NCBI GenBank assembly: GCA_945868475.1
Contig: CAMBLM010000008.1
Coordinates: 1-64,000 of the forward strand
From: an uncultured Ruminococcus sp.
GTDB lineage: Bacteria > Bacillota > Clostridia > Oscillospirales > Ruminococcaceae
DNA: 64,000 nt
Direction: 5' to 3'
The position numbers and the translations under genes were made by a program. Each line of letters opens with the position of its first letter. The first letter of the stretch is position 1. Positions 4,969 through 63,902 of this stretch are shown here, piece by piece. A model generated the notes under the pieces. It was not told the origin of the DNA. It searched no databases and saw only the letters and a program-made list of their open reading frames with translations.

Positions 4969-5246
4969 TACTAAACCAATTAAAAACTATACAAAAAATC
5001 GGGCATAATCTTGTAGCTGTTTCAACAGCTTTATATGGATCATGCGACGATTTTTTGTCTATAGTTTTTTTGGTGTTTAGAACCTGTCTTCATAAGAAAT
5101 GTGTGCGGATTTTCGAGCATAATTTTGTTGCAGAGTAGGCAAAAATCCGCAGGCGGGCTTTCGCCCGGCAAGGATTTTTAACGCAGTCTGCGGCAAAATT
5201 TGCCGAAAAGACGTGCGCATATGCTTGTGAAGACGGGTTCTTAGTA
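4969..5246. mobile_element. TACTAA-type palindromic element, copy 2, interrupted
   Basis: Its left part spans 4969-5079 (TACTAAACCAATT to TTGGTGTTTA) and its last three bases (GTA) are at 5244-5246. A 161-bp element of another family plus a TTA duplication interrupts it. The outer flanks are TTA at 4966-4968 and TTA at 5247-5249. The right-hand TTA is also the stop codon of the minus-strand GH5 gene. Subterminal CTATAG and ACAAAAAATC motifs are shared with other copies. Confidence 0.75.
5080..5240. mobile_element. 161-bp GAACC element, copy A
   Basis: Begins GAACCTGTCTTCATAAG and ends CTTGTGAAGACGGGTTC, imperfect terminal inverted repeats (15 of 17). It is flanked by TTA at 5077-5079 and 5241-5243. 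No base difference is seen from 14800-14960. It lies inside the right end of a TACTAA element. It has no transposase gene; the longest open stretch is about 18 codons. Confidence 0.82.
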
Positions 5247-14384: not shown

Positions 14385-14858
14385 ATGATAATTAAAGCTT
14401 ATGAAAAGCTTCCCGAAGAAGCGCATTATATCCGTCAGACGGTTTTCGTTGAGGAACAGGGATTCAGGGAAGAATTCGATACTCTTGACAATACAGCCGT
14501 TCACGCTGTCGGTTTTATTGACGGCTCTCCTGTTGCAACGGGAAGAATTTTTCCTGCAGAGGAGAACGGCGCATACTATCTCGGCAGGCTTGCCGTACTG
14601 AAAAATTTCCGCAAAAACGGAACAGGCAGCAAAATGCTTGTTTTTCTTGAAAGCGAAGCCGCAAAACGGGGCGCATCAAAGATAATTCTCCACGCCCAGA
14701 TACAAGCGCAGCCGTTCTACGAAAAGAACAGCTACATTGCAGAGGGTGAACCGTTTCTTGAAGGATCAGCGCCCCATATCACGATGATGAAAAAGCTTAG
14801 AACCTGTCTTCATAAGAAATGTGTGCGGATTTTCGAGCATAATTTTGTTGCAGAGTAG
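14385..14858 (+). CDS. GNAT family acetyltransferase with element-derived C-terminus
   Basis: 157 residues from the ATG at 14385, preceded by GAGGT. The GNAT core is present: 'IRQTVFVEEQGF' near the start, 'LGRLAVLKNFRKNGTGSKML' (acetyl-CoA loop R-x2-G-x-G type) and 'ILHAQIQAQPFYEKNSY'. The substrate is unknown. The last 18 residues come from the 161-bp element inserted at 14800. Removing the element and one TTA copy gives CTT-AGA-TAA, so the parent protein would have ended at '...MMKKLR'. Confidence 0.83.
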   Translation: MIIKAYEKLPEEAHYIRQTVFVEEQGFREEFDTLDNTAVHAVGFIDGSPVATGRIFPAEENGAYYLGRLAVLKNFRKNGTGSKMLVFLESEAAKRGASKIILHAQIQAQPFYEKNSYIAEGEPFLEGSAPHITMMKKLRTCLHKKCVRIFEHNFVAE

Positions 14859-14960
14859 GCAAAAATCCGCAGGCGGGCTTTCGCCCGGCAAGGATTTTTA
14901 ACGCAGTCTGCGGCAAAATTTGCCGAAAAGACGTGCGCATATGCTTGTGAAGACGGGTTC
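14800..14960. mobile_element. 161-bp GAACC element, copy B
   Basis: Same sequence as 5080-5240, with terminal repeats GAACCTGTCTTCATAAG and CTTGTGAAGACGGGTTC and TTA on each side (14797-14799, 14961-14963). It entered the end of the GNAT gene. Confidence 0.85.
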
Positions 14961-30516: not shown

Positions 30517-30647
30517 TACTGATCTATAATGAATGTATAGACAAAAATCGTTGCAAGATCCATTTAAAGCTGTTTTCAACATCAACCTGTTTTCAACAGC
30601 TTCAGCTTTCGCTTGATTTTTGTACACATTCCGATCAGATATTAGTA
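30517..30647. mobile_element. TACTGA/TTAGTA palindromic element, copy 4
   Basis: 131 bp, from TACTGATCTATAATGAATG to GATCAGATATTAGTA. Flanks are TAA at 30514-30516 (the stop codon of the membrane protein) and TAA at 30648-30650. The right edge abuts the pyrK ribosome site GGAGG. It is a subfamily with GATC and AATGT in its ends. Confidence 0.75.
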
Positions 30648-50545: not shown

Positions 50546-50575
50546 AAAAGCTGTCGTTTTCATACGGCAGCTTTT
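50546..50575 (+). terminator. Terminator of the liv operon
   Basis: AAAAGCTG and CAGCTTTT with inner CG pairs. The tail TTTTAT runs directly into the flank of a TACTAA element. Confidence 0.8.
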
Positions 50576-50576
50576 A

Positions 50577-50796
50577 TACTAATTTCAAATCGTTCTGTCT
50601 GCCATATCTGTCTATAGGCTGATTTGATACTAATCTCTGATCAACCTATAGACAAATCCTCGGCTACAATAAATCCACTCGGCGTCTAACTCCCTTGCAA
50701 GGCGGCAAGCCTTACTGCGGTTGTTATCCTTGATTGGATTTATTCTATCTGTCGGCTTTTTCTATAGAACGATCAAAGATTAGTATGAAATTAGTA
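50577..50796. mobile_element. 59-bp TACTAA element interrupted by an inner copy (outer copy, copy 5)
   Basis: The left part is 50577-50627 and the right part 50789-50796. TTA flanks are at 50574-50576 and 50797-50799. Removing the inner element and one TGA gives a 59-bp hairpin with perfect 15-bp ends TACTAATTTCAAATC. A diverged 59-bp relative is at 63844-63902. Confidence 0.8.
50628..50785. mobile_element. 158-bp inner TACTAA element (copy 6)
   Basis: From TACTAATCTCTGATC to GATCAAAGATTAGTA, with shared CTATAGA-AAA subterminal motif and an inner stem AATAAATCCA. TGA flanks at 50625-50627 and 50786-50788. It sits inside another copy. Confidence 0.8.
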
Positions 50797-50820
50797 TTAT
50801 ATAATTTGTGCTTTTTGCCA

Positions 50821-63626: not shown

Positions 63627-63662
63627 TACTAATTTTTTTAATCAAAGTGGGAAAAATTAGTA
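63627..63662. mobile_element. Minimal 36-bp TACTAA element (copy 10)
   Basis: TACTAATTTTT and AAAAATTAGTA are perfect 11-bp inverted ends around 14 bases. TAA flanks at 63624-63626 and 63663-63665. Smallest member seen. Confidence 0.7.
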
Positions 63663-63843: not shown

Positions 63844-63902
63844 TACTAATTTCAAATCGTTCTATCTGCCATATTTGTCTATGGTTCGATTTAAGATCAG
63901 TC
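63844..63902. repeat. Diverged 59-bp TACTAA element (copy 11)
   Basis: Same length and centre as the restored outer element of 50577-50796 (differences scattered), but the right end has decayed (GATCAGTC). TTA flanks the left side only. It lies between the stop codon of the edge gene and its terminator. Confidence 0.65.

Follow-up and report, generated by a model that had tools for sequence, protein, structure and literature searches.

A 158-bp palindromic element inserted in what is very probably a 59-bp short form of the same MITE-type family in an uncultured Ruminococcus

The ERIC, RUP, and Correia/NEMIS elements are short noncoding palindromes of less than 200 bp with terminal inverted repeats (TIRs), a terminal TA, and long stem-loops. 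The target of RUP is TA, RUP copies are also found in transposase genes of insertion sequences (ISs), and the RUP ends match those of IS630-Spn1 (PMC2229807). The bcr1 repeats of the Bacillus cereus group are intergenic MITE-like elements of ~150 to 165 bp with a conserved stem-loop (PMC3446304, PMC2267715). A 3-bp duplication, exclusively of TNA, is made by the IS1031 group of the IS5 family, which includes ISLrh (PMC12016507), and the eukaryotic PIF/Harbinger MITEs duplicate 3 bp of the form TWA (PMC4482050).

The elements described here, which we refer to as the TACTAA family, resemble bcr1 in size, intergenic position, MITE character, and the presence of a stem-loop but belong to a different host group. 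With the ERIC, RUP, and Correia/NEMIS elements they share the short noncoding palindromic form, the TIRs, the terminal TA, and the stem-loops. As with RUP, an element is found within a transposase gene (see below); unlike RUP, these elements duplicate 3 bp of TNA, and no IS with such ends was found. The TNA duplication is shared with the IS1031 group, but the ends differ from those of ISLrh (GAACCTGTCTAGTATCT) and no coding copy was found. The PIF/Harbinger MITEs are similar in their 3-bp duplication but are eukaryotic.

The nested pair lies in a stretch of 64,000 nucleotides from an uncultured Ruminococcus sp. (GenBank assembly GCA_945868475.1, contig CAMBLM010000008.1), hereafter the window, where its neighbors are a cytidylate-kinase-like gene (PF13189) and secD/secF and where a terminator-like hairpin directly precedes it. 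The outer unit spans positions 50577 to 50796 and is bounded by its TTA target-site duplications at positions 50574 to 50576 on the left and 50797 to 50799 on the right, which have no strand assigned. Its left 51 bp (50577 to 50627, plus strand) comprise a 15-bp TIR, the center, and the first 7 bp of the right TIR, and the final 8 bp (AATTAGTA) follow on the same strand at positions 50789 to 50796. The right arm is interrupted by the inner unit, a palindromic element of 158 bp at positions 50628 to 50785 with the ends TACTAATCTCTGATC and GATCAAAGATTAGTA, assigned to the minus strand, which has the more stable, covarying fold. It is framed by unstranded TGA duplications at positions 50625 to 50627, within the outer right TIR, and 50786 to 50788, exactly as the initial annotation had it.

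That annotation had also proposed that deleting the inner unit along with one TGA restores a perfect hairpin. The product is TACTAATTTCAAATCGTTCTGTCTGCCATATCTGTCTATAGGCTGATTTGAAATTAGTA, 59 bp long, with 15/15 inverted repeats at its ends and TTA on both sides. Among 1,971 deletion registers scanned around the junction, 4 gave the 15-bp repeat, all equivalent placements of one 161-bp deletion; the runner-up gave 13 bp and most registers 11 bp or less. A TA duplication of the IS630-like kind was rejected, as removal of 2 bp leaves GATTTGATATGAAATTAGTA, an imperfect arm, whereas 3 bp restores it in full and yields the 59 bp of the uninterrupted copies. An orthologous empty site was sought at secD, and none was readable: in G003 the genes are arranged differently, and in G004 the contig stops 88 bp upstream of secD.

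Relatives of the inner 158-mer are present in about 20 full or nearly full copies in the same genome and in dozens in two congeners, and the two-end pattern was detected in 102 stretches of the species-level genome collection. The titles among the matches listed are those of uncultured Ruminococcus, Oscillospiraceae, and, once, Clostridia metagenome-assembled genomes (MAGs). Altogether, 93 distinct elements were extracted from all loci; they range from 66 to 286 bp, with a peak at 157 to 159 bp, and carry 15-bp TIRs, as is typical of MITEs. The left end consists of the TIR, AAC, and CTATAGACAAA, and the right end, in reverse complement, of the TIR, GTT, and CTATAGACAAAG; the ends of the inner element are constant among its relatives. 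Identical 3-bp flanks of the TNA type are found in 71 of the 93 elements (TAA in 47, TTA in 14, TGA in 9, and TCA in 1, in left-to-right sense), and the excess of TAA over TTA indicates that insertion is polar. The remaining 22 lack matching flanks, mostly having two different TNA-like triplets, and are old or rearranged copies. Being short (59 to 286 bp), interspersed, present in dozens of copies per genome, and devoid of an internal transposase gene, these elements make up a nonautonomous MITE-type family, new but of a known kind, that belongs to uncultured Ruminococcus/Oscillospiraceae. Recent amplification is suggested by two genomes (G006 and G007) in which near-identical copies lie at the ends of contigs.

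No literature on such elements in Ruminococcus was found among open-license papers, nor an earlier description of the family in the papers and collections searched, and no Rfam family matched the elements above the gathering score. Viral contigs and plasmids yielded no elements. Four unannotated human fecal scaffolds labeled “UNVERIFIED Bacteriophage sp.” (L265 to L268; MT837484, MT836087, MT835604, and MT835593) carry the 158-bp element. Carriage by phage was considered and rejected: the two scaffolds with genes checked (L266 and L267) encode ordinary bacterial proteins, namely, EF-Ts, DNA polymerase I, and FecCD, so that these scaffolds are probably bacterial host DNA filed as phage. Separately, a 208-bp variant akin to the inner unit (L001:1308-1515 and two more; G000 C4, C9, and C10) has extra GCGCAGTGACCTTGTCC-like tandem repeats in one arm. 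The window also contains another probable element of 131 bp, from TACTGAT.. to ..ATTAGTA with TAA on both sides (30517 to 30647), and a minimal 36-bp inverted repeat, TACTAATTTTTT..AAAAATTAGTA, with TAA on both sides (63627 to 63662).

The latter lies 180 bp before the 59-bp stretch on the plus strand at positions 63844 to 63902, which had been put forward as a diverged relative. The length of this uninterrupted copy is indeed the same and 49 of the 59 positions are identical; however, TTA is present at the left side only (CTT at the right), and no duplication is seen because the right end has decayed (11/15 inverted-repeat match). It therefore speaks for the 59-bp form but not for a duplication, and as evidence it is weaker than first claimed. 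Further uninterrupted relatives exist in other genomes. Gapless 59-mers flanked by TAA on both sides were found in the uncultured Ruminococcus MAG CAMAIG01 (L175:1663-1721) and at L237:1219-1277; each matches the restored unit at 45 of 59 positions, and they share 55 of 59 with each other. A 59-bp copy of a different makeup, with the GTT type at both ends, 15/15 TIRs, and TTA on both sides, is present in the MAG JALFVE01 (G006, C3:13693-13751), which also has two 66-bp short forms, and a 60-bp form with TCA on both sides occurs in the same genome as the nested pair (C4:30958-31017); TCA, TTA, and TGA are the flanks of the 60- and 66-bp forms. No uninterrupted copy of the exact restored 59-base sequence was found, the matches being relatives. 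The earlier prediction that aligning the restored unit would reveal uninterrupted copies is thus borne out by relatives in other species, and the opposite outcome it had named, absence of the restored form everywhere combined with variable inner ends, was not observed.

In sequence, the short forms consist of both ends of the long element and lack the stretch between them, and the outer unit is therefore a short form of the family to which the inner unit belongs. The earlier wording of one copy inside another holds with respect to the family but not to the outer unit being a full copy.

Nesting is not confined to this site. Three further nested pairs in the same genome obey the same rule, and their restored outer units match uninterrupted copies of the respective class. 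At C24:1843-2118, a 174-bp unit is interrupted at TTA by a 99-bp element that belongs to a second class (TACTAAACACCAAT..), and the restored outer unit matches the 208-bp form over its full length. At C3:140713-140972, a 100-bp element interrupts a unit whose restored length is 157 bp (TAA; 92% identical without gaps to C3:109978), and at C7:80416-80673 the order is reversed, with a 158-bp element inside a unit of the 100-bp class, 97 bp long when restored (TAA; 91% identical to uninterrupted copies). Together with the 71 duplicated flanks, these pairs support the precise transposition and the TNA rule advanced in the initial annotation. Members of the 100-bp class show their TAA duplications in a single fixed orientation. 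One of them (TACTAAACACCAAT; L126:1095-1194, G000:C12) interrupts an open reading frame that stays in frame across the element with one TAA retained (..FFPRV-KRWRLPG..); a homologue of the interrupted gene was sought in congeners as an empty site, and none was found. Another (L129:1723-1822, G000:C1), also of 100 bp, lies within what is left of an IS5-type transposase gene.

The inner unit folds more stably as the minus strand (−66.4 kcal/mol, z = −9.2) than as the plus strand (−53.6 kcal/mol, z = −6.4), and the same strand is favored in all 58 full copies, by a mean margin of 15 kcal/mol. TIR positions 8 to 12 differ among copies, with 77 to 87% agreement between left and right within a copy versus 35 to 59% after shuffling. 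In an alignment of 25 diverse copies in the minus sense (A1), standard pairs make up 97.5% of the cells of a 55-pair structure; changes on both sides affect 29 of the 55 pairs, compared with a mean of 18 after shuffling (none of 500 shuffles reached 29), and the covariation score is 0.373 versus 0.141. Kinship alone can beat shuffles without any structure, but relatedness is retained in a slide control, in which shifting the partners lowers pairing to 30 to 40%. Where a pair is predicted from both strands, deviations from Watson-Crick pairing are G.U in 28 cases and A.C in 6, or about 5:1; for the union of pairs the ratio is 41:17, and the excess holds on thinning to 37, 28, 16, 12, and 7 sequences, with ratios of 32:5, 29:6, 25:6, 16:4, and 11:3, respectively. 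A one-sided constraint of this kind implies that RNA or single-stranded DNA is involved, unless mutation itself is strand biased.

A simple call of open reading frames places 27 of 81 elements between convergent genes and 52 in tandem settings, while 2 have divergent neighbors. Orientation relative to the neighboring genes shows no significant bias (31 versus 21 in tandem settings), so cotranscription with the neighbors does not explain the strand constraint. A function in mRNA through the neighboring genes was accordingly rejected, neither strand being preferred.

A second family, of 161-bp palindromes with GAACCTGTCTTCA ends, is represented in the window at positions 5080 to 5240 and 14800 to 14960, in both cases between TTA triplets, and elsewhere by copies at TAA and TGA. 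The core of the TACTAA-family minus strand, CCGCAG-GCGGGC-nnnn-GCCCGG-CAAGG, recurs in this family in the same strand sense, and the strand that bears it is far more stable than the other (−90.7 versus −61.3 kcal/mol). The core hairpin common to both families reads CCGCAGGCGGGC..GCCCGGCAAGG. In human fecal scaffolds, copies of the second family, mostly partial, are 99 to 100% identical, which suggests recent activity.

The 3-bp TNA duplication is that of the IS1031 group, and from this habit an IS1031-like (IS5-family) enzyme may move the TACTAA family. No matching TIR or linked IS5-type transposase was found: the PF01609 matches, which cover six genomes of the genus, end differently, none being of the TACTAA type; searches with PF13340 and PF13359 gave no suitable IS with TACTAA ends in any of 11 genomes, among them the ones that carry near-identical copies; and pairing TIRs by IS-size spacing detected none in G006 or G007, the genomes with recent copies. 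Because fragmented MAGs easily lose multicopy ISs, this absence is weak evidence. The second family shares the core, and its ends (GAACCTGTCT) resemble those of ISLrh, from the TNA-duplicating IS1031 group, more closely than do those of the TACTAA family; this resemblance, although indirect, is the best clue to the kind of enzyme behind the TACTAA family.

We consider it very likely that the locus contains two nonautonomous palindromic MITE-type elements of one family, a 158-bp member having inserted within an older 59-bp short form. The short form, made up of both family ends after loss of the middle, would have entered a TTA downstream of the cytidylate-kinase-like gene, just past its terminator-like hairpin and upstream of secD, and would then have read GATTTGAAATTAGTA at the future junction. 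Later, the right arm of this older unit would have been cut at TGA with a 3-bp stagger, and the 158-bp member would have inserted there. Both would most likely have been mobilized in trans by a DDE transposase that recognizes TACTAA....CTATAGACA ends and duplicates TNA; the enzyme type and the cut-and-paste chemistry are what we infer, whereas the anatomy, the duplications, the uninterrupted copies, the recurrence of nesting, and the covarying fold with its strand bias are directly observed. Quasi-palindromes are prone to mutation, and template switching can perfect them. A single complex palindrome could have arisen at a hairpin, either through slippage during replication or through a template switch; the TGA repeat and the 15-bp symmetry would then be coincidental, and the covariation of the two ends within each copy fits such a process, which could produce covariation without selection. 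Yet palindrome perfecting would erase the AAC/GTT asymmetry, which is kept in 25 of 25 aligned copies (giving G.U, U.U, and U.G in the minus strand), the 3-bp register is unique, and three other nested pairs exist; since the inner and outer units also occur separately elsewhere with TNA duplications of their own, this origin is already refuted and can be given almost no credence.

With two transposed elements as the preferred reading, the machinery allows more latitude. Mobility may instead depend on a different DDE enzyme that duplicates 3 bp, or on participation of one folded strand (RNA or single-stranded DNA), although this is rather unlikely: it is favored by the failure to find an IS5-type transposase with such ends, the fold constraint on one strand, the lack of orientation preference relative to neighboring genes, and the polarity of targeting, but the TNA habit of the IS1031 group, the simplicity of a double-strand staggered cut as the source of the duplications, and the ISLrh-like ends and TNA duplications of the second family with the same core point the other way. 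Covariation and strand bias, along with the scarcity of elements between divergent promoters and their abundance between convergent genes, would also suit elements that are retained chiefly because they function as RNA modules at the ends of genes (terminators, stabilizers, or RNase targets) and whose mobility is historical; given the balanced strands in tandem settings, the scattered, nested, and lineage-specific copies, and the lack of an Rfam family, we regard this as improbable. It is conceivable, although doubtful, that a folded single strand of fixed polarity (RNA or single-stranded DNA) is selected because the elements need it for their own spread. This suggestion builds on the core hairpin that two families, both duplicating TNA but unlike in their ends (TACTAA.. 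and GAACCTGTCT..), have in the same sense on the more stable strand, on stems that keep G.U over A.C (as measured in the TACTAA family), and on the unbiased orientation relative to host genes.

As a MITE, the family is ordinary in kind; its unusual parts are the strand-specific folding and the shared core, both of which go beyond the initial annotation. For this MITE-type family of Ruminococcus-like bacteria, uncultured and from the gut, the nested pair provides clean sequence proof of the 3-bp TNA duplication and of the exact insertion site. Through the covariation and the strand bias, it becomes testable whether bacterial MITEs are merely DNA recognized by its ends or require a folded strand as well, and the core hairpin common to two differently ended families offers a handle for such a test. 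If true, the folded-strand reading would mean that a structured nucleic acid takes part in moving MITEs that are otherwise of the DDE type.
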